From Pseudomonadales bacterium (GTDB taxonomy: Bacteria > Pseudomonadota > Gammaproteobacteria > Pseudomonadales > Azotimanducaceae), in assembly GCA_028285415.1 (NCBI GenBank), contig JANQPF010000005.1, forward strand, positions 310,001 through 374,000: DNA of 64,000 bases, given 5' to 3'. Within the stretch, counting starts at the first letter, position 1; the number at the start of each line of letters is the position of its first letter. The position numbers and the translations under genes are program-made. The notes below the pieces were generated by a model. The model was given only the letters and a program-made list of their open reading frames with translations. It did no database searches and was not told the origin of the DNA. Positions 11,654 to 55,018 of this stretch are shown here, piece by piece.

Positions 11654-13035
11654 CCACCGTTCTGATCACCCTCGTGGTGTATCAGGCGGCTCTTCTCAGC
11701 TTGGGGTGGTGGGCGCGTCGGCGTTCCACCACAACGGAAGGCTACTTCATCGGAGGTCGTGAGCTCGGCCCCTGGGTTGCGGCACTGAGCTACGCTGCAG
11801 GCTCTTCCTCTGCCTGGTCGATTCTCGGCGTCAGCGGCATTGCGTTCAGCCAGGGTATCAGCGCGCTGTGGCTCCTGCCGGGCACGCTCACCGGTCATCT
11901 CGTGGTCTGGTTCTGGATGGCACCGCGTTTGCGAAGCTTGAGCCACTCGGGCCGTCTTCTCACCTTAACCGACGTGCTCGCGCGCGATCAGGATGCGCGT
12001 TGGGCGAAGCTGACCTATCGGCTGAGCGCGATTGTCATTCTGTTTTCCTTCGTTTTTTACATTGCCGCGCAGTTTCAGGGAGCGGCCAACACCTTCACCG
12101 CGGTATTCGATTTCGACTTTGTGCTTGCGCTCCTTGTTGGCGCTGCGGTGGTGTTGGTCTACACGCTATGGGGCGGTTTCTGGGCGGTCAGCGTGACGGA
12201 TGCGTTGCAGGCAGGACTCATGCTCGTGGCCGCCGTGCTGCTGCCTGTGGTAGCGCTGATTGAGGTTGGTGGTTTCGGGGCGTTGCTCGCAGAAGCCGGC
12301 AGCAACGCTGACCCTTACTGGCAGTGGCTCGGCGGGCATAGTGGGTGGTTTGCGCTCGGTTTCTTCCTCGGGATGGTGAGTATCGGGTTCGGGCCGCTGG
12401 GGCAGCCGCATCTCCTCAATCGGCTCATGGCCATGCGTTCGGGGCGGGAGATTGCGCTGGCCCGGCGGGTGGCGCTGAGCTGGTTTGTGATTGTGCTCTC
12501 CGGCATGTTCGTGCTGGGGCTTTGCGGTCATGTGCTCCTCGTTGCGAATGCAGAGCCCGAGCAGATTTTCTTTACCCTCGCCGAAACGCTGTTACCGCCT
12601 GTGCTCACGGGCGTGCTGATTGCCGCGGTGCTGTCGGCCATCATGTCGACCGCCGACAGCCAACTCCTGGTGGCGGGTGCGGCCATTCATCACGATCTCG
12701 CGCGCGGTGCCGGACCGGCGTACGCCTCCCGACTGGCTGTGGCTGGCGTTGCGGTTGCCGCCGTCGTGCTGGCGCTCGCCCTGCCGGAATCGATATTTTC
12801 CAGAGTGCTGTTTGCCTGGAACGCGCTCGGCGCTGCATTCGGACCGGTGGTTGTGGCCCGCCTGCTTGGCTGGCGGCTTGCCGGACCGAGCGTGCCGCTG
12901 GCGATTGCGCTCGGATTTGGTTTGACGGTGCTCTTCTACAGCCTGCCGAACGGTCCAGGTGATCTCTGGGAACGGGCCGTGCCTTTTATCGCCGCGTTTG
13001 TCACACTTCTGGCCGCTCGATCGTCTGCTAAATAG
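11650..13035 (+). CDS. Sodium:solute symporter (SSS family)
   Basis: A 461-aa membrane protein with about 12-13 hydrophobic segments. The N-terminal ATTEG-like stretch (RSTTTEGYFIGGREL), YAAGSSSAWSILGVSG and the later LSAIMSTADSQLLVAG (sodium-site helix) are typical of the PutP/PanF branch. It should import an organic solute with sodium. It overlaps the enoyl-CoA hydratase by four bases, so the substrate may feed that enzyme. Exact substrate unknown. Confidence 0.9.
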   Translation: MTTVLITLVVYQAALLSLGWWARRRSTTTEGYFIGGRELGPWVAALSYAAGSSSAWSILGVSGIAFSQGISALWLLPGTLTGHLVVWFWMAPRLRSLSHSGRLLTLTDVLARDQDARWAKLTYRLSAIVILFSFVFYIAAQFQGAANTFTAVFDFDFVLALLVGAAVVLVYTLWGGFWAVSVTDALQAGLMLVAAVLLPVVALIEVGGFGALLAEAGSNADPYWQWLGGHSGWFALGFFLGMVSIGFGPLGQPHLLNRLMAMRSGREIALARRVALSWFVIVLSGMFVLGLCGHVLLVANAEPEQIFFTLAETLLPPVLTGVLIAAVLSAIMSTADSQLLVAGAAIHHDLARGAGPAYASRLAVAGVAVAAVVLALALPESIFSRVLFAWNALGAAFGPVVVARLLGWRLAGPSVPLAIALGFGLTVLFYSLPNGPGDLWERAVPFIAAFVTLLAARSSAK

Positions 13036-13054
13036 GACAGACGAGGAGAACGAC

Positions 13055-13693
13055 ATGCTGAAGCAGATACAGGCGGGCAGCGGCGCTTTGTTTGCCGTGT
13101 TCGTGGCGCTGCATCTGGTCAACACGTGGCTGGCTGGCCTCGGTCCCGCGGCTTACGACGGGGTGCAGAGTGTGCTGCGCAGCGTCTATCAGTTCGCGCC
13201 GGTTGAAGCGCTGCTGCTGGCCGCGCTCGCCGTGCATCTTGTGGTTGGCATCATGCGCATCGTAACCGAGCCGAAGCGGCAGCTGAGCACGCGAGCACGC
13301 TGGCATCGTTACGCTGGCTTTTTTCTGGCGCTTTTCATTGGCGGTCACATTCTTGCGGTTCGTGGTTCATCCTGGTTCTACGACGTGTACCCGGGTTTTG
13401 AAGGTCTGGCGTTCTCCGTGGCTGCCGTGCCGGCCTATTTTTATCCCTACTACTTTCTGCTGGGTACGGCGGGTTTCTATCACGCGCTGAACGGCCTCAG
13501 CATTGCGCTGCCGCGTCTCGGACTGAGCTTCCGTTTGCCGACTTCCGGTCTCAAGGTCGCAACGCTGGGCGCAGCGGCGCTGATGACCGTCTCCCTGCTT
13601 GGCTTTGGCGGCGTGCTGTTTGACGTCGGCAATCCAGCGGACAGCCCTTTTGCCAAGCTCGCTCTCGAGATTGTCGATGGACTGGCAGAATAA
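13055..13693 (+). CDS. Small multi-pass membrane protein resembling cytochrome b subunits (SdhC-like fold)
   Basis: A 212-aa protein with about five hydrophobic helices (residues 5-25, 50-72, 88-107, 120-150, 170-200). Several histidines sit in helices (FVALHLVN, AVHLVVGIMRI, HRYAGFF-x6-GGHILA). That pattern recalls membrane heme-b subunits of succinate dehydrogenase-like enzymes. No catalytic subunit lies alongside. ATG 13055 follows GACGAGGAGAA. The end overlaps the start of the ECF41 sigma gene by 17 bases, so the two are translationally linked and probably functionally paired. Heme binding is an inference from histidine placement only. Confidence 0.65.
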   Translation: MLKQIQAGSGALFAVFVALHLVNTWLAGLGPAAYDGVQSVLRSVYQFAPVEALLLAALAVHLVVGIMRIVTEPKRQLSTRARWHRYAGFFLALFIGGHILAVRGSSWFYDVYPGFEGLAFSVAAVPAYFYPYYFLLGTAGFYHALNGLSIALPRLGLSFRLPTSGLKVATLGAAALMTVSLLGFGGVLFDVGNPADSPFAKLALEIVDGLAE

Positions 13694-14555
13694 CCCGCGA
13701 CTGAAATCCCTCGTCTACGGGATGCTCGGGTCCGTTGCGGATGCGGAAGACGTCCTCCAGGACGCGGTGTTGAAACTGCACCAGACGGATCCGCCGCCGG
13801 AAGTGCCAGAGGCGTTCCTGTATCGGGTTGTCAGCAATCTCTGCATCGACCGGCTTCGTGCCGAGCGCGTGCGCCGCAAGCATTACGAAGGACCGTGGTT
13901 ACCCGATCCGTACCCGGTGGATGACACCCTGGAGCTTGCGTCACTGGCGGAACAGCTCACAACGGGCTTTCTGCTCCTCCTCGAAAACCTCTCGCCGGCG
14001 GAGCGCGTGGTGTACGTGCTGCGTGAAGGATTCGATTTCAGCTTTTCGGAAATTGCGTCGCTCCTCGACATATCCGCAGCCAATGCGCGCCAGCGGGCCA
14101 CACGGGCGCGAGCGCGGCTGCGTGAGATCAGTGAGCCGAACCCGGCGCCGAAATCTGCACAGAAGGCGGTGCTCGAGGACCTAGTGATGCGAATTGCTGC
14201 TGACGATGTGGCGGGTGTGGTTGCCCTGCTCAAGGAAGATGCGGTGGTGCTGACGGACGGCGGTGGGGTGGTGAGCGCCGCCATCAGGCCGATCACGGGG
14301 CGTGCGCGCATTGCCCAGGTACTTACGTTCCTGGGTCGCAAGGCGGCGGGCGAGGGTGGGGTGGAGTTCGAGTGGCTGGATGTCCCTGTGGGCATAGCGC
14401 TCTTGATGCGCCAGCACGGTGCGCCGCACTCGTGCTATCAGATCGAGGTGGCGGACGGCCGGGTGCAACGGCTCTTCGTCATGCGCAATCCGCACAAGCT
14501 CGCGCATCTGGCGGCGGTGACAGGCAAGGCAGCAACCCGCACACTAGCGTTTTGA
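13677..14555 (+). CDS. ECF41-type RNA polymerase sigma factor with SnoaL-like C-terminal domain
   Basis: A 292-aa sigma factor. Region 2 (GMLGSVADAEDVLQDAVLKL, RVVSNLCIDRL) and region 4 (FSFSEIASLLDISAANARQR) are clear. The three marks of ECF41 are present: a WLPEP-like linker (WLPDP, residues 74-78), DGGG (194-197) in the SnoaL-like extension, and an NPDKL-like NPHKL (271-275). In this family the fused tail controls activity in place of a separate anti-sigma factor. ECF41 genes usually sit beside a carboxymuconolactone decarboxylase or oxidoreductase. Here the overlapping partner is a small membrane protein instead. Start ATG 13677. Confidence 0.9.
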   Translation: MDWQNNPRLKSLVYGMLGSVADAEDVLQDAVLKLHQTDPPPEVPEAFLYRVVSNLCIDRLRAERVRRKHYEGPWLPDPYPVDDTLELASLAEQLTTGFLLLLENLSPAERVVYVLREGFDFSFSEIASLLDISAANARQRATRARARLREISEPNPAPKSAQKAVLEDLVMRIAADDVAGVVALLKEDAVVLTDGGGVVSAAIRPITGRARIAQVLTFLGRKAAGEGGVEFEWLDVPVGIALLMRQHGAPHSCYQIEVADGRVQRLFVMRNPHKLAHLAAVTGKAATRTLAF

Positions 14556-37183: not shown

Positions 37184-38254
37184 TTGATTGACTGTGATTC
37201 TCACGTGCTGGAACCAGCCGACCTCTGGCAGGACTACCTCGAGAGCAAATTCAAAGATCGCGCGATCCGCATTGAGGTAAACGAAGGCGTAGAACAGCTC
37301 ATCATTGGAGAACAGGTTGTATTGCAGGGCGTGCTCGCCGGACTTGGTGGTGCGCATCTCGACAAGAAGAAGCTCCTGGTGCCCGGCATGACATATGCGG
37401 AAGGCTGTCCGCCTGCGAGCTACGACCCTGCAGCCAAGATTGAGCAGATGAACGCGTGGGGCTTGGAGCACTCTCTTGTATTTCCGACCATCTGCATTCT
37501 ACCGTTCCCCACGGAAGACCAGGAGCTGGCCAACGCCTACTGTCGAGCCTATAACAACTGGATGCACGACTTTGCCACGGCCTGTAACGGCCGAGTTTGG
37601 CCGGTCGCCGTACTCAACTGGCACGACGTCGACACCGCCGCCAACGAACTCGAGCGTTGCATCGAACGAGGATTCAAAGCGCTTTTCGTGCCACCGGAAA
37701 CCGTCGCCGCCAAGCGCCCCGGCGATACGGCCTTCGATCCAATCTGGGCCCGTTGCCAGGATGCTGACCTGCCGGGATGCCTGCACGTGATTGTGAGGTT
37801 CTCGGGCGCAGCGCTTCCGTTTGCCGCATGGCACGCGACGAGTCCGGGGCCCATCTTCAGCTTCGGCCTGGGCGCGACGGGCCAGATGATCCCCGCACTC
37901 ACAAGCATGATCACGGACGGTTTGTTTACGAGGTTTCCGCAACTGAAAATCGTGAGTGTAGAAGCTGGTTGTGGTTACGCGCCCTATCTCATGGACCGCC
38001 TCGATGCCAAATTCGAAGTCTTCAAAGAGCTCGTGCCGCTCGAGAAAAAACCCAGTGAGTATGTGCAGTCAAACTGCTACTTCGTCGCGGAGCCTCTGGA
38101 GCGTACGATTGATGCTGCCCTGGAGCTGGTTGGTCCCGATCGCATCATGTGGGGTAGCGACTATCCGCACATTGATGGTTTGGCGGACCTGGGCGAAAAG
38201 CCTTTTCACGCACAAACGCTTGCCGACAACGCGCGAAGGCTTTTCAATCGGTAG
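37184..38254 (+). CDS. Amidohydrolase-family (TIM-barrel) metalloenzyme
   Basis: A 356-aa protein of the amidohydrolase 2 / ACMSD-like group. The N-terminal IDCDSHVLEPADLW carries the D-x-H metal pair, and IMWGSDYPHIDG near the end carries the catalytic Asp. AEGCPPASYDPAAKIEQMNAWG is common in the group. The reaction is decarboxylation or hydrolysis of a ring compound, not specified here. The start is TTG 37184, the only start near the conserved N-terminus. Its 3' end overlaps the converging kinase gene by 11 bases and marks the edge of the lower-GC segment. Confidence 0.85.
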   Translation: MIDCDSHVLEPADLWQDYLESKFKDRAIRIEVNEGVEQLIIGEQVVLQGVLAGLGGAHLDKKKLLVPGMTYAEGCPPASYDPAAKIEQMNAWGLEHSLVFPTICILPFPTEDQELANAYCRAYNNWMHDFATACNGRVWPVAVLNWHDVDTAANELERCIERGFKALFVPPETVAAKRPGDTAFDPIWARCQDADLPGCLHVIVRFSGAALPFAAWHATSPGPIFSFGLGATGQMIPALTSMITDGLFTRFPQLKIVSVEAGCGYAPYLMDRLDAKFEVFKELVPLEKKPSEYVQSNCYFVAEPLERTIDAALELVGPDRIMWGSDYPHIDGLADLGEKPFHAQTLADNARRLFNR

Positions 38255-39644
38255 CGGCGGGGAAGTACAGGAGCATCTCACAGTATTCGCCTTCTTCTGA
38301 ACGGCACTCGATCTTCCCGCCCAAGCCCTCCATGACGCTTCTGCAGAAGCTCAGGCCGATGCCCGTTCCGTTCTGGGAGTTGCGTGAGAAGAATGGATCA
38401 AAGATGCGGTGCAGATTGCTCCGCGCCACACCGATGCCGGTGTCGCGAACGCTCAGCACGTTCCAGTCTGTGTCAGTCGACACCGACAATGTGACGGAGG
38501 GTGCTTTGCCTTTCTGTGAAAACTCAACAGCGTTGCCGATGAGGTTGTACAGCACGTGCAGCAACATGTTTTCCTGTGCGTAGACGTCGAAATCATCGCC
38601 GTCTTCCAGCACTACCAATGATCTTTCGTATGGACTGTTGTACGGGTAACCATTCACGGCGCGATTCGCAACGGCGCGTATCGAAACCGGGGTGGACGGT
38701 CGTTCCAGCATCTCGATGGGTTTAGAGTTCGCGATGAGGATGTCGATCAGCGCGTGGGAATGCTCTACCTCACCGGATATCGATTCCAGACTCTCCTTCA
38801 GCTGCTCGAGTTTCTCCTGCGGGATAGGTTGCTCGATCCTGCCTTGTGCGACCGCGAATTTGTAACCCTCCACCAACTCAGGGAGACGTTTCGTCGTTCC
38901 GCTGGATAGGTTTCTGATGGTGGCGAGTGGGGTGCGGAGTTGGTGGGCTATGGCGGACCCAATCCGCGATGCTGCCTCCATTCTGTTCTTGGTTTGATCG
39001 TTTCGGAAGCGCATTGCCAAAGCGAAAGCAACGAAGAAGAGGATGTACGTTGAAAAAATGTTGGCGATTGAACTTGAGCCTAGGATCCCAAAGGAAAGCG
39101 GGGTAAACACTAGATGAAGTGAGTAAACGATCGAACACACAATCAGCGTAGATGCCAAAGCTGCTAGTGCGCTCGTGGCAGAGATTACTAGGATCCCGAC
39201 GGCAGCGACGAACTCCGTTTGTCTTTGTGAAATGAGCGCGAGATTTGGGTCGTTCTGAGAGAGCTCGAGCAGTAGGCCACTGAGGAGTAGGCCCGGTCCG
39301 GTAATTGTGATTGCGAAAATGAAAAACTGCTTCGGCCAGGGTATCGTCTGCCGATTCTCCAGCACTGGCGTGATCAAGTAAGGTATTAGAACCAGGACTG
39401 CGAGGACTCGGGCTACAACGGGTTCAGTTAAACCTTGAGATTTGTTGATAAGAAAGAACGACAAGTGGAACAAGAGCGTTGCAGAGCAGATAAGGATCAT
39501 CCAAGGGCGCCAGAGCGAAAAACTTTCAACCGAGGCGTCACGCAGTTTGGATGGCGCTAAAGTCAGCCAATCATAAATTGACTTGGAGGAAAGCGGTTTG
39601 GACAGTCCTAACTCTTTAGATTTACTGTTGATTCCCCTGCTCAT
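38244..39644 (-). CDS. Six-TM sensor histidine kinase, orphan
   Basis: A 466-aa membrane kinase. Residues 48-212 contain about six transmembrane helices without a large periplasmic loop, so the input is probably a lipophilic or membrane-borne signal. HisKA has H234 in GSAIAHQLRTPLATIRN. The ATPase has LYNLIGNAVEFS, DTGIG (401-405), FDPFFS and GTGIGLSF. The overall form (6TM then AHxLRTPL) resembles CqsS/LqsS autoinducer sensors. No response regulator or receiver domain is present nearby. The base composition of its N-terminal half matches the low-GC island. Confidence 0.9.
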   Translation of the reverse strand: MSRGINSKSKELGLSKPLSSKSIYDWLTLAPSKLRDASVESFSLWRPWMILICSATLLFHLSFFLINKSQGLTEPVVARVLAVLVLIPYLITPVLENRQTIPWPKQFFIFAITITGPGLLLSGLLLELSQNDPNLALISQRQTEFVAAVGILVISATSALAALASTLIVCSIVYSLHLVFTPLSFGILGSSSIANIFSTYILFFVAFALAMRFRNDQTKNRMEAASRIGSAIAHQLRTPLATIRNLSSGTTKRLPELVEGYKFAVAQGRIEQPIPQEKLEQLKESLESISGEVEHSHALIDILIANSKPIEMLERPSTPVSIRAVANRAVNGYPYNSPYERSLVVLEDGDDFDVYAQENMLLHVLYNLIGNAVEFSQKGKAPSVTLSVSTDTDWNVLSVRDTGIGVARSNLHRIFDPFFSRNSQNGTGIGLSFCRSVMEGLGGKIECRSEEGEYCEMLLYFPAATD

Positions 39645-39728
39645 TTGTCGAGCCTGCTAGTTCCCAATCTTCAGCTCTGCAGCCGATCGGCGTATTGTCA
39701 GCTACTTTGGGGAATCCTGCTGTAGGAA

Positions 39729-40265
39729 TTATGCTCGCTTTCGAATTTCCTTAAACAGCCCACTCGAAATCTCTTGCGCTTGGGCTTGGAAAAAATGAGT
39801 GCTCTCTTCTAGGGTGGAATTGTCAACTAGATCGCTGTCTGGCTCATGTAGTGATGTTTCCAGTGAGGCGATGTCGATTCGAATACCGGCCTTGTGGAAT
39901 AGAGAGTTGTGATCCAGACGCCATTCAGCCCCTAGCAAGGATATTCCTTGATCCAACATGATTTTCGTGCGCACCAACAGACAAGGGGTAAAATCACATG
40001 CTATGCCAAGGAAAGTTGCGCTTCTGCCCCCTTCTCTTGGGTTCGAGTCATGTAAACCCCAAACCACATAGCCTCCGGTGATTTCCTCTAGCTCCGCTAC
40101 GAGCTTACACATAGCTAACTGGATTGCGCCTTGGCCTTCGGACTTCCAAGGACCAAATGGTCCAATACATCGTATTGCACCTGACCGCGTAGGCCTGGGA
40201 TCAACCAAAGCGGAGAATTCGCCCAACTGGCAATGACCGGATTTCAGGTCGATGGACCAGTCCAT
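39729..40265 (-). CDS. Hypothetical protein in the island
   Basis: A 178-aa soluble protein, mixed alpha/beta, with no signal or membrane segment. Features that stand out are GPFGPWKSEGQGAIQLAMCKL, GGYVVWGLHDSNPREGG and a glutamine-rich end (FFQAQAQEISSGLF). No family recognised. It shares strand and orientation with the six-TM kinase (84 bases downstream) and is divergent from the cyclase gene, so it may be a partner of either. Base composition is that of the island. Confidence 0.6.
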   Translation of the reverse strand: MDWSIDLKSGHCQLGEFSALVDPRPTRSGAIRCIGPFGPWKSEGQGAIQLAMCKLVAELEEITGGYVVWGLHDSNPREGGRSATFLGIACDFTPCLLVRTKIMLDQGISLLGAEWRLDHNSLFHKAGIRIDIASLETSLHEPDSDLVDNSTLEESTHFFQAQAQEISSGLFKEIRKRA

Positions 40266-40539
40266 TTAATTCCCTTGTAGAAAAGAGTCTGCAGGTTAGC
40301 GTGAGCCTAATCAGCGAATTGAGAACTAGTTAGCATCTATGACCCCCTCATTTTGTGAGACATCGCGGAAAAGGTTAGATTTGTGGGAGCAAATGGACCT
40401 GCTGGAACTTGTTATTTTGGAATCCGTAATAGAGTATACGGCTCGCCTTAGTGTGCGCCCTGTACACCCCTCGAAGGAACGAGCTCATCCAGTGGGTAAG
40501 GAAGTCTTGGTTGCAGGAAATCTCCCTGGGTAGGCATCG

Positions 40540-41976
40540 ATGAAGTGGTTTGAATCAACCATAGCTTACTTATTCCCGACGATACTTATCGACGGTACTC
40601 CGTGGCGAAGTCTGTGGGAAATTCAGCAGCAAGAACAGTTTGTTCGGGTTGCTCGCTTTTTCTTTCCTTTCCCAGCTGTCGGATACATCGCGCACTATTA
40701 CTATTTCGATGTGCCAATGGGTTTGGAACCGATCGAGTTTTGGTTCCAATTCCGGGCCACTATGTCGGCTGCATGCTTGGTCGTCATCGCGTTTTACTTC
40801 TCGCCGCTCGCTCGAACCCGAATCTATAAGATCCCCGCAATGCTGCTTTGCTTCGGCATCTGCTATTCCCAGGCGAAAGTGACTGTGTGGTATGGGAAAG
40901 AGGCTTGGGTATTCTTCTTCTTGTTCATTTTAGCCATGGTGATGCTGCTTCGAATGAGTTCATTGAACAGCGTTGCTTATGGTGCGTTAGTCGTGGCTGT
41001 ATCCGTCCCCGTGTTGATGGATGGAGGTGTTACAACCGAAAACATCGTAAGTGGAAGCATAGTGACTCTTAGTTTGTGCGCGATGGTTCGTGCGGCTTTC
41101 GTCTCGGACGTCAGGAATTTTCTCCTAAATCAAGAAAACATTGCGGCTCAAGAGAAGATCATCGAGCTAAGCCAAGATTTCTCGAACCGTATCAAGTCTT
41201 TCATCCCCAAGGTAATTGCGGATCGGCTAACGCATTACATGGAGGAGGATCGCTTGACGGTTGTAGAAGCTTCGATTGAAGCTCTCAAAGCTAGAAAACA
41301 GGACATCGCCTGCCTCTTTACTGATATTCGTGGATACACACAGGGATCGAAAGACATCGATCGTTTCATCAACGAAAGTGTGATGCCAGAGGTTAAGGAA
41401 TGTTCGGACACAATTGAGAGACTTCAAGGAATTCCTCGGAAAGTCGGGGATCTCATCTTCGCCTACTTCGATACAGAATCGGTCCAGCTGAACACTCTGC
41501 GAGCCCTGATCGCGGGCATAGAGGTCTCACGTATAAACGAATCTATGAACGCAACCGGCACCGCTCTCGAAATTCGTCGGTATATTTTGATCGCGTCAGG
41601 AGATGCCTTTGTAGGAAATTTTGGTGGGCTGGACTCCTCAATCGAAATTACCGCGCTTGGTTCACCGGTGAACTATCTAAGTCGTGTTGACGATCTAACC
41701 AAGGCTCCTGCGCTTGCTTCGAAGATCGATACTGGTGATATCCTGATTAGCCAACGAGCGTTCAATCTAGTCAACGACGGTGTCGTTGCGTTGGATTGTG
41801 AAATGATTGATCTAAGCCAATTGGATCTAGCGATCCGAGACTTTCCAGAAGAAACAATCATCTATCGCCTGATACCAACGGACGCGATCTACGAATCGTT
41901 GTTGAATGCTTACGATCGGCTCATTAAGCCGAACGCGGAGAGTCTTATTGGACGAAATGGATCAATTGCGATCTAA
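40540..41976 (+). CDS. Membrane class III adenylate/guanylate cyclase
   Basis: A 478-aa protein with about six transmembrane helices (residues 40-190), a linker helix (200-235) and a C-terminal cyclase domain. The two metal-binding Asp residues are D262 (IACLFTDIRGYT) and D304 (KVGDLIFAYF). Transition-state residues are N378 and R382 (GSPVNYLSRVD). The purine-selecting positions are unusual: R300 where adenylyl cyclases have Lys, and S375 where Asp or Thr is common, so cAMP or cGMP is uncertain. It overlaps the acyltransferase gene and begins a four-gene run. Confidence 0.87.
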   Translation: MKWFESTIAYLFPTILIDGTPWRSLWEIQQQEQFVRVARFFFPFPAVGYIAHYYYFDVPMGLEPIEFWFQFRATMSAACLVVIAFYFSPLARTRIYKIPAMLLCFGICYSQAKVTVWYGKEAWVFFFLFILAMVMLLRMSSLNSVAYGALVVAVSVPVLMDGGVTTENIVSGSIVTLSLCAMVRAAFVSDVRNFLLNQENIAAQEKIIELSQDFSNRIKSFIPKVIADRLTHYMEEDRLTVVEASIEALKARKQDIACLFTDIRGYTQGSKDIDRFINESVMPEVKECSDTIERLQGIPRKVGDLIFAYFDTESVQLNTLRALIAGIEVSRINESMNATGTALEIRRYILIASGDAFVGNFGGLDSSIEITALGSPVNYLSRVDDLTKAPALASKIDTGDILISQRAFNLVNDGVVALDCEMIDLSQLDLAIRDFPEETIIYRLIPTDAIYESLLNAYDRLIKPNAESLIGRNGSIAI

Positions 41977-43417
41977 GTACGACTTAGATTTCTCTGCAGT
42001 ACATCAGAAAGTTCAACCCGCCGATATTCGCCATACCGATAGGGTGATCGCGCGTGTTCGCATGAGAAGCGATGATGCTAGCGAGGATTACCATGCCGTA
42101 AAAGTCTGGAGGATGAGCCCGCTTGGAGTCGAACTCGTTTGTGATGAACAAGAGATCGAATGGCAAAAAGGTAGTCCAATAGACCTAGAGCTCACCATTG
42201 GCGGTCAACGAATGTTCTTCGAAGGACTGGTTGTCGACCTCGTCCAAGAAAATGACGCTATCAAGCTCGCTGGGATTCGCCTATCTAACCGTTTGGATTC
42301 AACTAGGGGGGAGGAAAAAAGGCGCTCCCCAAGATGGATTTGCAGTGACGAGTATTTCCCTACGTGCGTAGCCCCTAGTCCAGCTGTCATTAATGACTTC
42401 ATGCACTTTCAAGTCAGAGATATTTCCCTCAACGGCCTACAGTTGATATGTAGCTTGAGAAACAAATTTCTTATCCCAGACATGGTGCTAAGAATTACCG
42501 CAATCTTTCCACTCGTTGGTGACTTTGTCACGTCTGTGAAGGTGGTTCGCGTTGGCTTTACAACAGCTCGCGGTAAGGATCGCCTTTCAGTCGGGGTGGA
42601 ATTTGTTGACGTAGATGAACATATGAGGACCGTACTGGGCCAATACTTGATCCAATTCGGAAATGTTGACTCATTGGATAGTCTGCGGAGGCTTGGGTAC
42701 AAGTTTGAGTCAGTTACGCGGGCCGTCGATTTTTACTACGTCAAAACAGAAGAAGATTATCGCGAGGTTCTGAGACTGAGGTTCCTGGCGCACAAGGCAG
42801 ATGGAAATCTCTCAGATGATTCCGTCGAACTTTCATCCATGGGAGACATCAACGATGCCAAAGGAAGGATTGTAATTGGGAAGCACAACGGAGAGGCAGT
42901 TGCTACCTCGCGTGTAAGATTCAACACGCTAGATGAACCAATGGAACACGAGCGTTATGTGGATTGGCCAGATAGTTTACCGAGGCGCGATCAGATAATG
43001 GAGGTGTCTCGTGTTTGCACACATCCTGACTACCGCAGAGGTGACCTTTTAGCCGGTCTTCTACAGTTTACTTGTGCCACGATTTTGCATCCAGAGCGGC
43101 CATGGGTAGTGGTCGGTTCTTGGCCGGAGATGGTTGGGTTCTATAAGAAGGTGGGGTTCGAGGAAACAGGTCTTACGCATCTGGAGCCTCAATGGAATAC
43201 GGAGCAACACATCCTGATCGGAAACTCGAATTATTCGGTTACCGGAAAAGGCGTTAACCCTATTTATTGGAATTTGATTTGGCGTGGTGCTTCTGAATAC
43301 GCCATCACCAACAGTATCGTTGTTCCGCAGGGTATGGATAGAATTCGATTGGCGCTATATAGAGCCATAGGTCCGTTCGCTCGATTGTTTTTTCGCCTTA
43401 GAAGAAAGTCAAAATAG
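41957..43417 (+). CDS. Tandem PilZ domain protein fused to FeeM/LuxI-like N-acyltransferase
   Basis: About 486 aa. The first region (to about residue 110) is a degenerate PilZ domain (VWRMSPLGVEL). The second PilZ (about residues 120-235) keeps both c-di-GMP motifs: RRSPR (RxxxR) and DISLNG (DxSxxG). From about residue 258 a GNAT fold follows, with YREVLRLRFLAHKAD, GKHNGEAVATSRVRF and IMEVSRVCTHPDYRRGDLLAG. The EVSR pattern recalls FeeM-type N-acyl amino acid synthases and LuxI. I infer c-di-GMP-controlled N-acylation. The frame is open to 41906. ATG 41957 is chosen, but TTG 41948 has a better-spaced GGAGAG. It overlaps the cyclase stop. Confidence 0.8.
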   Translation: MDQLRSKYDLDFSAVHQKVQPADIRHTDRVIARVRMRSDDASEDYHAVKVWRMSPLGVELVCDEQEIEWQKGSPIDLELTIGGQRMFFEGLVVDLVQENDAIKLAGIRLSNRLDSTRGEEKRRSPRWICSDEYFPTCVAPSPAVINDFMHFQVRDISLNGLQLICSLRNKFLIPDMVLRITAIFPLVGDFVTSVKVVRVGFTTARGKDRLSVGVEFVDVDEHMRTVLGQYLIQFGNVDSLDSLRRLGYKFESVTRAVDFYYVKTEEDYREVLRLRFLAHKADGNLSDDSVELSSMGDINDAKGRIVIGKHNGEAVATSRVRFNTLDEPMEHERYVDWPDSLPRRDQIMEVSRVCTHPDYRRGDLLAGLLQFTCATILHPERPWVVVGSWPEMVGFYKKVGFEETGLTHLEPQWNTEQHILIGNSNYSVTGKGVNPIYWNLIWRGASEYAITNSIVVPQGMDRIRLALYRAIGPFARLFFRLRRKSK

Positions 43418-43430
43418 TTGAGCCGTAGCT

Positions 43431-45683
43431 TTGTTAAGCACACTTAGGGATTACCAGGTTTTCATTTGGGGTGTATTTGGCATCCTCCTTCTCGTGTCTT
43501 TCGTTGGTCTAACCCGGCTCTCCATAACTGCCGACAACAGGGTGTTCTACGGCTCGGAAGATGCTCGATTTTCAGCTCTATCCGAGTTCGAATCCGAATT
43601 CAGATCGAATACAAAGATGCTTTTAGTAGTTGTCTGTGATCTGCCACTTGCGGACTGTGATGTGGCCCCGTCGCTAATTGGGAACGCTGCCAAAGGGTTG
43701 TTGGATGTAGAAGGAGTTGTAAGAGTCGATTCGATCGCGAACCAGCCTTTTATTAAATCTACTGCTGACGACCTAGTCGTTTCGACGTACCTTGCGGAAT
43801 CCTGCCCAGACACTTGCTCTAACACATCGGTTCTTCTGGATGATCGGATGATCGGCAGGTTCGTCAGTCAAGATCTAACGTCCTTTGCGGTCATCGCGAC
43901 GCTGGATTTTGACGTCGGTGCTCCTGGGGAGGTGCAACGGATACACCGGGAAACTACAGAATTAGTCGAGAGCCTGAAAGAGAAATACAGCGTCGACGTA
44001 CGATTTGTTGGGACAATTCCGTTGATGCAGGCGTTCTTGGACGCAGCAAACCGAGATATCGGAGGTATCCTTGCGGCCGCGATTTCGCTCACGTTCGTCA
44101 TACTAGTGATTGCTTATTCCAACCTTTTCGTCGCCGGTGCTCTATCGATGCTTGGTCTCTCAACGATGGTGATCACATTGGGCGCAGCAGGTTGGTTTGG
44201 TTTGGTGTTAAACACCGCTACCGCAACGATTCCCCTCATCCTTTTCACGATCGTAGTTGCAACATCAACACATCTCTACATGCACGTGGTGAGAGCGCTT
44301 GGTGAGAACAGCAGACTATCAGTTTCCGAAGCAGTTGATGCAGCGCTGGGGGCTCAACTTGTACCGATTTGTTTAACAGGCATTACAACGATTGTTTGTT
44401 TAGGTTCGTTGGCGTTTGTCACATCACCCCCCATCCAAGAAATCGGGATTTGGACCTCCGTGGGAATTGCGACTGGTACTGCGATTCTGTTGCTGATCGT
44501 CCCGCTAACTTTGTCCTATTCAAACTCGATCTCTGGGTCGAAGTGGCAGGAATACCTTCAAAGGAAGTTAAATCTTTTGGCGCGCAGCATGGAGAAAGAG
44601 AGACCGACCTCGGTCCTGTTGATTCTCCTGGTTGCGCTATCTGGGCTTAGTATCGTCAGCTTGGAAATTGACGATGATTTCGTGCGTTACTTCGATACTG
44701 AGAACTCGTTCCGAAAGGATACTGAGTTCGTTTCTGAAAAGCTTTTCGGACCGAACAACGTAGAGGTTGTAGTTGGCAGTACTAAAGAGCAAGGCATTGA
44801 CGACCCGCAATTTGTTGCAGTAGTTGACCAACTAGCGAAATATCTGCGCCAACACCCGAGTGTAAAAAACGTGATCTCGATTGCGGATGTTGTGGAGGAA
44901 ATGCACGTTCATCTTGGAGATGGCTCAGATGTGGAGTCACTCACCAGCGAGGCGGTTGCGCAATATCTACTCGCTCATGAAATGTCTTTGGAGCACGGCC
45001 AGGATGCGGGTGATCTCGTTGGAGTGGGTCGCAACAAAGCTCGGGTTTCCGTTGTCAGCGGTGATATCACCTCCTCCCAGGTGCGAGAGTTGGAACAAGA
45101 TATCTACGATTGGGCTGAGCGATTCTCCGGCAGCTATACGGTGGAAGTAACTGGGGAGAGTATCCCAATATCGCATCTAACCTTGGAGAACATTCGCGCG
45201 GTGGTTACTTCGATTCTGTTGTCGTTCGTGATTACTTCAATTGCTTTGGGCCTCCTGTTTGGCAGTTGGCAAATTGGACTCGTAGCCTTGGTTACTACTG
45301 TCGTTCCGGTGGTTTGTGGATTCGGTATTTGGGGTCTTTTTGTAGACTCGGTTGGACTTTCAACTACCGTGATAATTGCTGTTTGTATGGGAGTCGTCAT
45401 TGACGATGCGATACACATCATCTACCGGTTCGTCGATGCCCGAGAGAGGTTAGACTTTGATGCAGTCGAAGCTGGTGCCTACGCGGTGCATAGGGTAGGT
45501 ACCTCAATCGTGACGTCATCTATCGCTCTAGTGGCCGGATTTGCGGTGCTGTATTTCTCCGACTTTGCGCTCAATAGCACGTTTGGAGCCTGCTCCGCGC
45601 TAATTATCGTGTGTGCGTTGGTTATGGACTTGTTTATGCTTCCCAAGATGTTAGGCTGGGCTGCTAGAAAACAAGCTGCGTAG
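43431..45683 (+). CDS. RND/MMPL-superfamily exporter
   Basis: A 750-aa transporter with the doubled 1+5 helix layout: one helix near residues 13-30, a soluble loop, five helices at about 215-365, then again one near 400, a loop and five helices at about 595-745. The second half has the relay-like VVIDDAIHIIYRF. The matching site in the first half reads VVATSTHLYMHVV without Asp. MMPL and HpnN-type members move lipids. No membrane-fusion or outer-membrane partner lies here. It starts with TTG 43431, 13 bases after the acyltransferase stop, so it is likely co-transcribed and may export its product. Confidence 0.87.
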   Translation: MLSTLRDYQVFIWGVFGILLLVSFVGLTRLSITADNRVFYGSEDARFSALSEFESEFRSNTKMLLVVVCDLPLADCDVAPSLIGNAAKGLLDVEGVVRVDSIANQPFIKSTADDLVVSTYLAESCPDTCSNTSVLLDDRMIGRFVSQDLTSFAVIATLDFDVGAPGEVQRIHRETTELVESLKEKYSVDVRFVGTIPLMQAFLDAANRDIGGILAAAISLTFVILVIAYSNLFVAGALSMLGLSTMVITLGAAGWFGLVLNTATATIPLILFTIVVATSTHLYMHVVRALGENSRLSVSEAVDAALGAQLVPICLTGITTIVCLGSLAFVTSPPIQEIGIWTSVGIATGTAILLLIVPLTLSYSNSISGSKWQEYLQRKLNLLARSMEKERPTSVLLILLVALSGLSIVSLEIDDDFVRYFDTENSFRKDTEFVSEKLFGPNNVEVVVGSTKEQGIDDPQFVAVVDQLAKYLRQHPSVKNVISIADVVEEMHVHLGDGSDVESLTSEAVAQYLLAHEMSLEHGQDAGDLVGVGRNKARVSVVSGDITSSQVRELEQDIYDWAERFSGSYTVEVTGESIPISHLTLENIRAVVTSILLSFVITSIALGLLFGSWQIGLVALVTTVVPVVCGFGIWGLFVDSVGLSTTVIIAVCMGVVIDDAIHIIYRFVDARERLDFDAVEAGAYAVHRVGTSIVTSSIALVAGFAVLYFSDFALNSTFGACSALIIVCALVMDLFMLPKMLGWAARKQAA

Positions 45684-45699
45684 CTTTTTGTTGCAGTAA

Positions 45700-46476
45700 A
45701 TGAACAGAGCCGAGCCCGTCGAAGTGCTTACGGCGCCTGTCAAGGACGATGAGCGACGGCTAGAGTACAGCGCTTATGCAGATCAGTTCGACAGTATGTG
45801 CGAGCTGATTCCAGCCTATCAAGAAAACATCGACTATCTTTTGGACATAGTCGGGAGACTGGAACTCCCCGAAGCGCCAAAAGTTTTAGATTTGGGTGCG
45901 GGTACAGGTAATTTTGTACTCGCTCTGCACGATCTAGTTCCTTCAGCAGACTTCGTCCACCTAGATTCAGATCCAGCAATGAATCGAGTTGCGAAGAGCA
46001 AGTACAAGGAAAAGGGAATTGAAAAAGTCGAGATAGTCGAAGAATTTATGCAGAGGGCGACTTTCGAAGAGGACGAGTTTGACCTGATCGTGTGTGTGAA
46101 CTCTCTAAACACTGCCCCACCGCAAGACCTCGTACTTAAGCTGATAAATACTTGGTTAAAACCTGATGGGAAACTGTACCTGATAGACTTTGGTCGCAGG
46201 CAGCGTTTGGTGGATTGGACCTGGTATATATTTTCGAATACCGTGCGCCGGTTCGGTCCGATGCGCTTCTTTTCGGCGTTCTATGAAAACCGTCAGGGGC
46301 TTCGCCAAAACCGTAATGCCACTAAAGATCAGGACAAGGGCTTGATGTGGCTTCACACGCATGAAGAGTTCGAGAAAATTGTAACCAGTGCCGGCTTGGT
46401 GATAGAAGTATCGACTACTTGTTATCGAGACTATTGCGATCTGATTGTCGCGCACAAAGGCGCTATCCCGCCCTAA
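45700..46476 (+). CDS. Class I SAM-dependent methyltransferase
   Basis: A 258-aa methyltransferase. Motif I is VLDLGAGTGNFVLAL (about residues 64-78), followed by VHLDSDPAMNRVAK and EDEFDLIVCVNSLNTAP. A C-terminal half with PMRFFSAFYENRQGL suggests a lipid or polyketide-type substrate pocket, but this is weak. It is the last gene of the four-gene island run, 16 bases after the exporter, so modification of the same molecule is the simplest idea. Its end overlaps the converging RidA gene by 14 bases. Confidence 0.85.
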   Translation: MNRAEPVEVLTAPVKDDERRLEYSAYADQFDSMCELIPAYQENIDYLLDIVGRLELPEAPKVLDLGAGTGNFVLALHDLVPSADFVHLDSDPAMNRVAKSKYKEKGIEKVEIVEEFMQRATFEEDEFDLIVCVNSLNTAPPQDLVLKLINTWLKPDGKLYLIDFGRRQRLVDWTWYIFSNTVRRFGPMRFFSAFYENRQGLRQNRNATKDQDKGLMWLHTHEEFEKIVTSAGLVIEVSTTCYRDYCDLIVAHKGAIPP

Positions 46477-51239: not shown

Positions 51240-52009
51240 GCGGCAACCTTGAAGATGGCGGTGTGGCGCGTGTCTGTGGTGAGCTCGTCGCCTCGCCAGA
51301 GACTGACGTACAGGCTGATGAACTCGTGTCCTTTCTTCTGCCACTTCTCGAGCGGCACCGTTCGTAGCGTCACGGTGTCGCCGACTTTGAGCGCTGCGCG
51401 GTGGCGCGTTTCGGAGCCAACGTGAATCCAGGTTGGCATCACGTATTCTTTCGTGAGCGCCGTGTTGGCGAGCGACAGCAGAAGATGCGGGTGCGCGTAC
51501 GTGTCGTAGAAGGGTAGCGGATCGGCTACCTCGCTCGTATAGCGCTGGTTCAACTCCTCGGTGATGACCACTTCCCAGGGGCCGAACGGCTGGCCGGGCT
51601 CAACGTTGTCCCAGCAGATCTCAACGCGCTCGGGGAGTTTCAGGTTGCCGTCGAAGATCGATTCCGGCTCAGCTGCCGGGAGGCGCTCGGGCAGCGTGCT
51701 GCTCAGCGTGGCCAGGAGCTCACCGCCAGCGTTGGAGCAGCGGACCTCATGCTGCCCGTTGTCTTCGATGAGCTCGAAGCTCAGCCGGTCGTCATGATAG
51801 GCGGGTTTGAGCAGTCGCAGATTGTCGACCGAGTGTTCCAGCCATTCGGCGCCGAAGCGTTCCGCCAGCAGATACGTCAGGTGTCCGTAGACGGCGACGC
51901 CGGGAACCAGCGCGCCTTTGAAACCGAACTTCCTGGCGATGTCGTCAGAATGGATGCGGTTCTCGCTGGAAGTGCTGAAATTTCGCGCGGTAACGGCGTA
52001 GCTGCTCAT
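51236..52009 (-). CDS. MaoC-like double hot-dog protein (hydratase type)
   Basis: A 257-aa protein with two hot-dog repeats. ENRIHSDDIARKFGFKGALVPGVAVYGHL in the first half carries the MaoC-type Asp and His residues. The second half (TWIHVGSETRHRAALKVGDTV) is the other hot-dog. Members hydrate enoyl-CoA or act on thioesters. It is translationally coupled to the PurN-like gene downstream and lies 30 bases after the TRAP large subunit on the same strand. Confidence 0.75.
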   Translation of the reverse strand: MSSYAVTARNFSTSSENRIHSDDIARKFGFKGALVPGVAVYGHLTYLLAERFGAEWLEHSVDNLRLLKPAYHDDRLSFELIEDNGQHEVRCSNAGGELLATLSSTLPERLPAAEPESIFDGNLKLPERVEICWDNVEPGQPFGPWEVVITEELNQRYTSEVADPLPFYDTYAHPHLLLSLANTALTKEYVMPTWIHVGSETRHRAALKVGDTVTLRTVPLEKWQKKGHEFISLYVSLWRGDELTTDTRHTAIFKVAA

Positions 52010-52039
52010 GATCTGCAGGGTCTGGTCGAAACCGATATT

Positions 52040-53378
52040 TTACCCATACGCCTGCGCCGGGAGCCAGGTGACCAGTGCCTCCCAGTTGAAAAGGATGAGC
52101 ATGCCGAGTACCTGCAGGATGATGAACGGCACGACACCACGATAGATCGTGACGACGTCCACGCCCTCCGGGGCCACACCCTTGAGATAGAAAATTGCGA
52201 ACCCGACGGGTGGCGTCAGGAAGCTCGTCTGCAAACAGACCGCAAACAGGATTGTGAACCAGACCGGATCAAAACCGAGACTTGCCACCACTGGCGACAC
52301 GAGCGGCAGCACGATGAGTGTGAGTTCGATCCAGTCCAGGAAGAAACCCAGAATGAACGTGGCGATCAGGATGCAGATGATGATCCCGGTTGGTTCGAAG
52401 GGTAAACCGAGCAACACGCGTTCGATCAGCTCGTCGCCTCCCAGGCCTCTCAGCACCAGGGAAAACGCGGTGGCGCCCAGGAGCACCGCAAAAATGAAGG
52501 CGGTGGTGCGGGTGGTTTCCTGCAGCACTTCGCCCATGACCTGGCGGTTGAGTTTGCGATTCAGCCACGCGAGCAGCAGCGCTCCCGCAGCGCCCACGCC
52601 CGCAGCCTCCGTGGGCGTTGCCAGGCCGAAGAAGATGCTGCCGAGAACGGCGAGAATGAGGAAAGCGGGCGGCAGAATGGCTTTGAAGAGATCAAAGAGC
52701 ACGCCGATGTCGAAGCCTTCGCTCGGCGCCGCCGGCGCATAGGCCGGTCGGAAGCGCCCCACGGCCAGAACGTAGAAGATATACAGACCACCGAGCAGCA
52801 TGCCGGGAAACACCGCGCCGAGGAAAAGATCGCCCACGCTCATGGACATCCGGTCGGCCATCAGGACGAGCATGATGCTCGGTGGAATGAGAATCCCCAG
52901 CGTACCGACGGCGCAGACCGTGCCGGAGGCGAGTGATTTGTCGTATCCCTGGCCGAGCATCGCCGGGAGGCCCAACAGGGCTAACAATACGACAGACGCG
53001 CCGATGATGCCGGTTGTGGCAGCCAGCAGAAGTCCGATCAGGATCACGGTAATTGCCAGGCCGCCGCGCACGCTGCCGAAAAGACGTGCAAAGCTTGTCA
53101 TCAGCTGGTTGGCGATGCCCGAGCGGTCGAGAAGCAGGCCCATGAAAATGAACATGGGCAGCGCCACCATCACCCAGTTCTCCATGACGTTCCAGATGCG
53201 GTCCACGGTGAGGGAGGTGTAAGACCAGTCCATGCCGATCGGCAGCGCAAAGTCCACCTGCAGAACCACGGCGAGTGCGCTGAAAATGACAGCGAGTCCG
53301 CCGAGAAGCCACGCGACAGGGAAGCCGGTAAACACCAGCAGGATGAAGCTGACGAACATGAGGACCGCCAGCGTTTCG

Positions 53379-53389
<11 letters not shown>
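52040..53389 (-). CDS. dctM: TRAP transporter large permease (DctM)
   Basis: A 449-aa membrane protein with about 12 helices. GVLIPPSIMLVLMADRM-like (GILIPPSIMLVLMADRMSMSV), PTEAAGVGAAGALLLAWL and FILGFFLDWIELTLIVLPLV are DctM hallmarks. It forms the sodium-coupled channel that receives solute from the DctP protein. GGAG six bases before ATG 53389 favours this start over ATG 53395. It overlaps the DctQ gene by 11 bases. Part of the dctP-dctQ-dctM operon running leftwards from 55018. Confidence 0.92.
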
Positions 53390-53914
<525 letters not shown>

Positions 53915-53915
<1 letters not shown>

Positions 53916-55018
53916 CAGAAGTCCCGTGGCAGGTAGGCGCGGGACTTCCAGTGCGCGTAGTCTTTGCGGAACGCACGCTGTGATTCGAGGATGTTGGCGA
54001 AGTCCTCGTCGTTGGCGGCTTCTTCGTTGATGACATCTCGCGCCACTGCTTCGAGTTCGCGCAGCAGCGCCTCTGGAAGCACTTCTGCCGTCACGCCAAT
54101 GTCCGGGAAACCGGCAATGATGGCGCCCTGACTTGCCTCTGAGTTAGACAGGTTGCGAATGACACCGGCGGTGCAGCCGAGCTCAATCATCGCCTGGTCC
54201 GCCGGCTGCAGCTCGTTCCAGGCATCGAGATTGACGACAAGATGTGAGGCGGTGAACGGCTGGTGCCAGCCCGGGTAGTAGTTGAACTTGGCAACCCGGT
54301 TGAAGCCGAGCGTCTGGTCGACGATGGGCAGGGCAAACTCGGACGCGTCGATGGCCCCCTTCTCCAAGGCCTGGAAAATCTCGCCGCCGGGAATCATCGT
54401 CACGCTTGCGCCGAGGCGCTCGATGACGCGCCCGCCCAGACCGGCAAAGCGGATTTTGAGGCCTTCCACGTCGGAGAGACTGCGGATCGGCTCACGAAAC
54501 CACCCGGCGGTTTCCGGTCCGGTCATGCCGCAGTAGATCGGCATGATGTTGTGTTTCGCGTAGAGCGCTTCGCCGAGCTCGCGACCGCCGGCTTCGAACC
54601 ACCACGCGCTGTATTCCCAGGGTTCCATACCGAACGGGACGGCGCCGAGCAGCGGTGAGGCGGGGATTTTGCCCTGGTCGTAGCCCATCCAGGTGTAGCC
54701 CACTTCCACTTTTCGATCCCTGACCGCGTCCGTGACGGAAAAGGCCGGCACAATCTCACCCGGTTCGAACACGTCGATCTTGATAGCGCCGTTGGACGCT
54801 TTGCGGATCATGTCCGCGACATACAGCGGATTGTCGCCGAGCACGGGCAGCGTCGTCTGGAAGACGACCGGCATGCGCCAGTGAATGCGGGCCTGGGCTT
54901 CACCGGCTTGCGTCGCGACAGGCGCGGTGTTGGCGCCGGGTGGCCGCACGGCGAGGCTGCCGATGATGCCGACTACAAACGCCACCACCACTGCCGTGAG
55001 CGCAGCCTTATTACTCAT
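53915..55018 (-). CDS. dctP: TRAP transporter solute-binding protein (DctP)
   Basis: A 367-aa periplasmic binding protein with an N-terminal signal or anchor (AALTAVVVAFVVGIIGSLAV). RIHWRMPVVFQTTLPVLGDN begins the DctP fold, and ADMIRKASNGAIKIDVFEPGEIVPAF is typical. Y-rich hinge residues lie near GYTWMGYDQGK. The acyl-rich neighbourhood suggests an organic acid, but the substrate is not readable. No two-component regulator lies nearby. Confidence 0.9.

Follow-up and report, generated by a model that had tools for sequence, protein, structure and literature searches.

We describe here a gene pair that encodes a FeeM-type N-acyltransferase (NAS) and a class I SAM-dependent methyltransferase (MT), and that lies in a six-gene locus of a Pseudomonadales bacterium (Azotimanducaceae). 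The pair is the new result of this analysis, and the locus around it is a conserved module. From our point of view there is an even chance that this module is quorum-sensing-like, with a lipid signal made by NAS and MT, an input from c-di-GMP, sensing by a kinase and an output through an LqsR-type regulator.

Organization and conservation of the locus

The locus occupies positions 38244-46476 of the window, i.e. the whole stretch of 64,000 nucleotides that was analysed, and all six genes are present there as open reading frames. On the minus strand, a divergent sensor histidine kinase (38244..39644) and a 178-aa protein (39729..40265) face a four-gene run on the plus strand, which encodes a membrane protein with a class III nucleotidyl cyclase domain (40540..41976), a PilZ protein with a C-terminal FeeM-type NAS (41957..43417), an MMPL-type RND transporter (43431..45683) and the MT (45700..46476; Pfam Methyltransf_25, 1e-17). 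The mechanical frame of the NAS begins at 41906, and the ATG at 41957 was picked as its start on the grounds of conservation and overlap. Given this start, the cyclase and NAS genes overlap by 20 bases (-20), followed by gaps of 13 bases before the MMPL gene, which starts with TTG at 43431, and of 16 bases before the MT gene. The GC content is 0.493 in the cluster versus 0.601 in the flanks used. A first-pass annotation of this DNA had described the same facing arrangement, the same spacing and the lower GC, and our frames, gaps and composition agree with it; the gene order on which it had built a candidate system is also present in other genomes.

In the host's family, of which 206 genomes were covered, NAS was found in 21 (E<=0.001; two weak matches of about 20 bits, G441 and G356, were left out of all counts), the MT in 20 (E<=1e-30) and the cyclase in 20 (E<=1e-40), with 19 genomes shared with NAS in either case. 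Both co-occurrences reach a Fisher p of 1.3e-23, a value uncorrected for kinship. The 23 mapped loci comprise 21 with the cyclase, 20 with the MT, 14 with an MMPL homologue of >500 bits and 14 with the kinase, and since the gene set is conserved in other genomes, chance can be excluded.

Cluster GC is clearly below that of the flanks in seven of eight relatives as well (for the eighth, L022, the flanking sequence is just 788 bases long), and the same neighbours turn up repeatedly across the 23 loci, with phosphatase-like genes in 16, RidA-like genes in 12 and an amidohydrolase in 7. For both reasons low GC alone is not evidence of recent import. An origin from a mobile element was rejected too, as the PilZ-NAS of the window has no match in plasmids and no relative in viral contigs; the Sulfitobacter NAS described below, the sole query used against the phage collection, found no match there.

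The PilZ-NAS protein

The NAS exceeds the curated Pfam cut-offs both for FeeM (1.4e-7, 31.9 bits, cut-off 27) and for PilZ (1.2e-11, 45.3 bits, cut-off 22.5), and a second PilZ-like stretch lies N-terminal of the PilZ domain. The residues D314 and D317 (DxxD), R336 and E366 are invariant in nine of nine sequences. Glu366 is presumably equivalent to Glu95 of FeeM; its column holds Asp in the Sulfitobacter NAS, as aligned by hhalign, and Glu in that of Deinococcus. The FeeM-like assignment made at first, as opposed to an unrelated acetyltransferase family, is thus supported by the score and by the D-x-x-D, Arg336 and Glu366 residues. An enzyme of this type would take a fatty acyl chain from acyl-ACP and couple it with an amino acid.

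It could also be imagined that the GNAT part acylates another amine, in an ornithine-lipid-like or polyamine reaction, and that the MT modifies the resulting head group. The GNAT part is indeed also above the cut-off of Pfam Acetyltransf_5 (25.7 vs 22.4), its FeeM score is modest, and the PilZ-NAS profile, run against PDB sequences, gave no link to FeeM and returned general GNATs only, at weak values (best 0.012). We nevertheless regard such a reaction as very improbable, as P0004, L024, P0012 and P0013 match FeeM better than any other GNAT family, the residues named above are invariant, and the NAS partners of the MT elsewhere are clear FeeM members (1.9e-35, 1.3e-36 and 6.7e-26). With the Sulfitobacter-type NAS profile, the PDB search had an AHL synthase as its single match (0.0012); the NAS profiles of the two groups align weakly with each other (hhalign probability 41%, E 2.9e-4).

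PilZ receptors of c-di-GMP are marked by the motifs RxxxR and [D/N]xSxxG. Both are kept in nine of nine sequences (R139 and R143; D/N172, S174 and G177), and the Pfam scan found no cyclic-nucleotide-binding domain in the NAS of the window. The PilZ part may let c-di-GMP set NAS activity. In the metagenomic proteins Nas354 and Nas343, a FeeM-type NAS with an active-site Glu and a PilZ domain are likewise found in one polypeptide, and c-di-GMP binding was proposed to act in their regulation (PMC4897644). Unlike in the window, the NAS comes first and PilZ last in these proteins, which are presumed to lie outside a biosynthetic operon, and the consulted parts of that paper describe no MT, cyclase, exporter or kinase with them (PMC4897644). 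As Nas354 has both domains in the opposite order, the two-domain enzyme is not wholly new.

The NAS-MT pair in other bacteria

When 72,556 plasmid records were searched with the MT (E<=1e-5), four matches were obtained, three in Sulfitobacter and one in Deinococcus, and a FeeM-family NAS adjoins the MT in all four. In a second family, which is probably rhodobacteral, the MT is present in six of 394 genomes, with an adjoining NAS in each (one of them weak) and a kinase beside the pair in five. The NAS-MT pair thus occurs in another class and another phylum than that of the window's host. MT and NAS even share one open frame in locus L123, which is known from one genome only, of about 1060 contigs, and in which the NAS could still start internally. 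In genome G551 the MT stands without a visible NAS, with the contig stopping 162 bases further on. As a control, the Sulfitobacter NAS was searched against the plasmids, where it matched nine records, four of which carry the MT. The full records of the other five (four Rhizobium, one Shinella) contain no MT match at E<=1e-5, and therefore not every NAS has this MT. In one of these five, L126, a GGDEF-domain phosphodiesterase adjoins the NAS, and no MT was seen in its incomplete gene table. The distances of MT and NAS are correlated (r 0.79 over 29 loci, 0.50 over the 20 cluster loci), as would arise from common descent alone.

The pairs elsewhere and the one-frame MT-NAS strengthen the earlier proposal that the run makes and methylates an acylated molecule, the chemistry of which is read from sequence. 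In the best such reading, the signal would be the methyl ester of an N-acyl amino acid (NAME) or a related compound: the MT would cap the NAS product, most likely as a carboxyl methyl ester, although it could methylate another position. NAMEs are the expected end product of an NAS and a carboxyl methyltransferase. Their known producers are strains of Roseovarius and Loktanella, and the MT-NAS-kinase triad was seen here in Sulfitobacter, also a roseobacter. According to the consulted portion of PMC11580390, earlier studies turned up no candidate synthase genes for NAMEs. NAS genes are also accompanied by a methyltransferase in the stieleriacine cluster, but there the enzyme was proposed to C-methylate the tyrosine ring, and the cluster includes a PEP-CTERM gene, with no kinase/cyclase set described in the consulted part of the source (PMC7293339).

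Cyclase, exporter and the 178-aa protein

Class III cyclases are recognized by two metal-binding Asp and a transition-state Asn/Arg pair. The cyclase of the locus has no Pfam match at E<=1, its family profile matches adenylate cyclases in the PDB (CyaB, 7.9e-12), and the corresponding residues, placed by the CyaB alignment as Asp262, Asp304, Asn378 and Arg382, are invariant in eight of eight sequences. The base-selecting position is Lys in adenylate and Glu in guanylate cyclases; here it reads Arg300 in eight of eight, with Thr371 as its partner, and therefore the substrate cannot be called. One could speculate that the cyclase, the gene of which overlaps that of the NAS, adds a cyclic-nucleotide input or output. 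NAS activity is tied to a cyclic nucleotide in NasP, a cAMP-activated NAS (PMC4897644), from which the locus differs by its adjacent cyclase gene.

The MMPL protein is a clear family member in Pfam (1.5e-23, 83.7 bits, cut-off 20.5), and in NCBIfam it matches HAE3 at 3.9e-35 with 121.1 bits, under the subfamily cut-off of 351.9. Loci L013, L065, L066 and L067 lack a close homologue, and near L060, L061 and L070 all homologues are distant, so that MMPL was rejected as a core member. Where present, the pump may carry the lipid outward. Export, gating by c-di-GMP and a cyclic-nucleotide input, as suggested by the first-pass annotation, would accordingly keep their standing as proposals, with export not extending to all loci and with no cyclic-nucleotide receptor turning up in analyses that had other aims. 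The 178-aa protein has no match in Pfam or NCBIfam; homologues lie beside the same cluster in three other mapped loci (L023, L054 and L059), and a further one is found near a cyclase fragment at a contig end (L129).

An exporter in 14 of the 23 loci, together with loci that lack the kinase, would also suit a pathway for a lipid, surfactant or antimicrobial, in which an exported N-acyl amino acid derivative serves the envelope, biofilm or antagonism and the kinase merely regulates the operon. In a group of distant relatives, MMPL lies beside NAS in four of six loci, and cyclase or MT matches occur in none of the six. The product of Nas354 is a surface-active N-acyltyrosine (PMC4897644), and NAMEs were described as mildly antimicrobial and inactive on LuxR-type receptors (PMC6296433). 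We consider this explanation rather unlikely, as kinases of two different kinds adjoin NAS-MT pairs in two classes and as an LqsR-type regulator accompanies the cluster kinase in all family genomes that have it.

The kinase and LqsR-type regulators

The kinase matches Pfam HATPase_c (3.5e-23), with HisKA at 23.3 bits staying below its cut-off of 26.9, and has no receiver domain match in Pfam. It shows six hydropathy peaks; the same crude count yielded 3, 3, 4 and 6 peaks for four relatives. Its best NCBIfam model is LuxN (3e-35; next 2.8e-23), and all five kinases that were scanned match this model, for which the E-value is lower than for any other family (3.8e-36; next 1.8e-27). Membership in LuxN was rejected, since the match to NF041945 stays at 121.6 bits, where the cut-off is 1550, and covers the kinase domain only. 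LuxM and LuxN form a system of an acyl-amide signal synthase, of a family other than NAS, and a membrane kinase; LuxN resembles the window kinase in its kinase domain, whereas the latter lacks the receiver match. The Sulfitobacter-type kinase has generic best models (PnpS first), not LuxN.

In its own genome, the window kinase reaches 665 bits and the next match 71. L013, L060, L061, L064, L065 and L066, which all keep cyclase, NAS and MT, gave no close kinase (L064 begins near a contig edge), and sensing may consequently be dispensable or unlinked there. Weak generic matches of 42-63 bits (L013, L065 and a second one in L068) were left out of the cluster-kinase count. A relative of the kinase was matched in 1532 plasmid records, two of which were inspected: in L107 (Cupriavidus; kinase 209 bits) neither NAS nor MT nor a regulator is matched within 10.7 kb, and the annotation of L108 shows none of the three.

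An LqsR-type regulator is present in 12 of 12 family genomes with the cluster kinase, mostly unlinked, in 5 of 9 NAS genomes without it (p 0.021) and in 26 of 185 family genomes without NAS. It lies inside the locus in 4 of 23 loci, where it matches PDB 6sy9, which we take to be LqsR, at 2.2e-42, and it is also linked to the kinases in genome G399. No regulator is linked to the window kinase, the sole LqsR homologue of this genome lying about 320 kb away. The LuxN-like kinase could sense the lipid and signal to a regulator of this type, which some species encode within the locus and the window's host at a distant site. The suggestion of the first-pass annotation that the kinase senses the product gains from the LuxN-like domain, from the regulators and from the other kinases beside NAS-MT pairs, and sensing itself stays a proposal.

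A membrane sensor kinase and an LqsR-family regulator, the proposed partners here, also characterize the Lqs (LqsA/LqsS/LqsR) and Phc (PhcBSRQ) systems, and the signal of the latter is a methyl ester from a methyltransferase (PMC10653808). In the consulted part of that source, no NAS, PilZ, cyclase or MMPL is named for them (PMC10653808), and they differ from the window also in that the latter has no linked regulator. PhcB makes 3-hydroxy fatty acid methyl esters (PMC10653808), and in G399 an MT without NAS forms a single run of MT-kinase-kinase-regulator that is reminiscent of phcBSRQ (PMC10653808). MT, kinase and regulator might accordingly form a Phc-like circuit with a fatty-acid methyl ester signal, with NAS and cyclase encoded alongside as an output under its control and NAS not being the maker of the signal. 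This appears quite improbable to us: the G399 MT nests among the NAS-linked MTs and so looks like a case of NAS loss, NAS is present in 19 of 20 family genomes with MT, and the MT is paired with NAS in 4/4 plasmid matches and 6/6 genomes of the second family and shares one frame with it in L123.

Implications

We return to the quorum-sensing-like reading and, tentatively and at less than even chances, extend it to a new autoinducer class, in which c-di-GMP (plus a cyclic nucleotide) gates the synthesis of an NAS-MT ester, an RND pump exports it and a LuxN/LqsS-like membrane kinase perceives it, and in which the same pair is the genetic basis of the orphan NAMEs. For the NAMEs, bacterial lipids that resemble AHLs and for which neither genes nor a receptor are known, the gene set supplies candidate genes, and with the NAS-MT pair and kinases in Sulfitobacter and the host's family, the origin of NAMEs becomes a testable two-gene hypothesis. 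To our knowledge, no lipid signal has been proven to be under direct c-di-GMP control at the level of its synthesis. Should the PilZ part act in the proposed way, c-di-GMP would exert such direct control here and tie the biofilm state to cell-cell communication.

Conservation of the cluster in the host's family

The cluster lies at 38244-46476 of the window (G000:C15:310001-374000, in a genome of 5.97 Mb), and its six genes were found where the first-pass annotation had placed them, namely a histidine kinase and an unknown 178-aa gene on the minus strand and, on the plus strand, a cyclase, a PilZ/FeeM-type N-acyltransferase (NAS), an RND-type transporter (MMPL) and a SAM-dependent methyltransferase (MT). 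The 20-base cyclase/NAS overlap was reproduced with an NAS start at 41957, the other gaps being 13 and 16 bases, and the reported lower GC was likewise recovered (0.493 vs 0.601 in the flanks). Cluster GC is also below its surroundings in seven of eight relatives (L023-L029), independent of host GC. The AT skew extremes of the window (-0.30 and +0.26) fall within 12000-14000 and 52000-54000.

The suggested conservation check showed that the cluster genes recur together in other genomes. A scan of genome contigs returned eight loci, all from metagenome-assembled genomes, six of which lie on contigs matching in length those from the family search; the additional two (L022 and L023), labelled Bacteroidetes and Alphaproteobacteria, carry MTs that group with those of the family. 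NAS matched (E<=0.001) in 23 of the 206 family genomes, two of which were dropped at only about 20 bits; the remaining 21, together with L022 and L023, gave 23 loci for profile mapping. The cyclase is present in 21 of these, adjoining NAS in 20 and separated from it by MMPL in L068; L071 has none, and L070 stops at a contig edge. MT occurs in 20 loci (4.6 kb from NAS in L067) and is absent from L068, while L012 and L071 run into contig edges. MMPL exceeds 500 bits in 14 loci and the kinase is found in 14, in three of which it extends to the contig end (L022, L055, L062). An LqsR-type regulator and the unknown gene occur in four loci each, never together.

Genome-wide, MT (E<=1e-30) and cyclase (E<=1e-40) were each found in 20 of the 206 genomes, 19 of them shared with NAS, the exceptions being G399 for MT and a contig-end fragment in G360 for the cyclase; in G133, MT is on a different contig. 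Both co-occurrences with NAS are strong (Fisher p 1.3e-23 each, relatedness uncorrected). Genes flanking the cluster are repeatedly the same across the 23 loci (phosphatase-like in 16, RidA-like in 12, amidohydrolase in 7), so its position is old in the family. Among the same-genus genomes lacking NAS, 18 of the 20 listed measure 1.6-3.4 Mb, vs 5.97 Mb for the window genome, and NAS carriers in that listing tend to be larger (2.3-6.0 Mb).

The synthase and the cyclase

The window NAS scores above the Pfam cut-offs for both PilZ and FeeM. In an alignment with eight family members (40-53% identical to it), conservation covers the canonical residues of the PilZ motifs, a PilZ-like region further upstream also retains RxxxR, and the acyltransferase DxxD, Arg336 and Glu366 are invariant in all nine. 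In the window protein PilZ precedes the NAS domain, whereas PMC4897644 gives the reverse order for the two-domain enzymes Nas354/343.

In an order-level sample of 293 genomes, 11 matched the window NAS: three belong to the home family and are nearly full-length, and eight distant ones come from two other families. Two distant proteins have FeeM above and PilZ under the cut-off. MMPL adjoins NAS in four of six loci of one distant family (L016, L017, L018 and L020), near which P450-like and FadL-like genes were also recognised by reading the sequences. No cyclase or MT match (E<=1e-3) was found in the eight stretches around distant NAS genes. On a Rhizobium tumorigenes plasmid (L126, 4932-8325), a relative of the Sulfitobacter NAS adjoins a gene annotated as a GGDEF-domain phosphodiesterase, which is another hint of a c-di-GMP/NAS linkage.

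The cyclase has no Pfam match at E<=1, and its family profile picks out PDB adenylate cyclases, CyaB among them. The metal-binding Asp residues and the Asn/Arg positions do not vary (8/8), so the enzyme is likely active; its base-selecting position reads Arg, neither the Lys of adenylate nor the Glu of guanylate cyclases. The cyclase is the most constant neighbour of NAS, so a cyclic nucleotide probably matters. Another NAS, NasP, is reported to be cAMP-activated, as mentioned in PMC4897644.

The NAS-MT pair outside the family

The window MT matched four of 72,556 plasmid records (E<=1e-5), three from Sulfitobacter and one from Deinococcus, and a FeeM-family NAS adjoins it in all four. Two Sulfitobacter NAS proteins match FeeM at 1.9e-35 and 1.3e-36, the third being 93% identical to the first, and the Deinococcus protein at 6.7e-26. 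A histidine kinase follows the pair in all three Sulfitobacter copies, but not in Deinococcus. On Sulfitobacter plasmid NZ_CP139710 (L106, 6199-8390) an IS256 transposase gene interrupts the MT, while the copy on NZ_CP139709 of the same strain is uninterrupted. On Deinococcus plasmid CP029776 (L110, 3285-6643) the genes flanking the pair encode a desaturase for fatty acids and another methyltransferase, so the product there may be unsaturated and further modified.

In a phylum sample of 398 genomes, G702, G771 and G551 carry MT at 1e-30 besides the window genome, four in all. NAS, MT and kinase stand in a row in G702 and G771; no NAS was seen beside the MT of G551, where the contig stops 162 bases beyond it. 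Judged by kinases 60-62% identical to that of Sulfitobacter, the family of G702 is probably Rhodobacteraceae. Among its 394 genomes, six carry MT, each with an adjoining NAS match (weak in L125, 34 bits), and five of these loci have the kinase, L125 stopping at the contig edge. A single open frame of 531 codons covers both MT and NAS in L123; this is one draft assembly, and NAS may start internally. Tree distances of MT correlate with those of NAS (L106 and L012 left out), which common descent alone could explain.

The kinase and LqsR-type regulators

Among NCBIfam models, LuxN fits the window kinase best, through the kinase domain only; it matches all five scanned kinases, and no other listed family reaches as low an E-value. 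The regulators adjacent to the cluster in four loci match PDB 6sy9 (2.2e-42 over 261 positions), which we take to be LqsR, the PDB table reading only 'Response regulator'. A genome-wide search at E<=1e-15 finds regulators of LqsR type in 43 of the 206 family genomes: in 12/12 with the cluster kinase, 5/9 with NAS and no such kinase, and 26/185 without NAS. Within NAS genomes, regulator and kinase are associated (Fisher p 0.021, uncorrected for kinship and genome size). The window genome has a single LqsR homologue, located on the contig of the cluster at a distance of about 320 kb. This unlinked gene (L104, 8937-9935) adjoins ABC-transporter-like genes, as read from sequence.

PMC10653808 describes the LqsR family with its degenerate GGDEF-like output domain, and a Phc operon in which the methyltransferase PhcB produces a methyl-ester signal. 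In G399 (L127, 6980-11639, minus strand), MT stands in a single run with a pair of kinase-like genes and a regulator of LqsR type, an arrangement that recalls phcBSRQ as presented there. The family search found no NAS match in G399, and the grouping of its MT with NAS-linked MTs suggests that NAS was lost.

A putative N-acyl amino acid methyl ester circuit

The first-pass annotation proposed that the four-gene run makes, methylates and exports an acylated small molecule. In our model, NAS would join the acyl chain of acyl-ACP to an amino acid, under control of c-di-GMP via PilZ; MT would methylate the product, most likely at the carboxylate; MMPL, where present, would export it; and the kinase would sense it. 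Roseovarius and Loktanella are known sources of N-acyl amino acid methyl esters (NAMEs; PMC6296433), and PMC11580390 states that no synthase candidates had been found. In line with the annotation, no described system with this set appeared among the literature matches listed, which cover few subscription papers and, for two of the lists, 20 of 169 and 8 of 1,728 matches. The cluster is classed here with signal-synthase/sensor-kinase circuits, as a putative new form separate from LuxN, Lqs and Phc.
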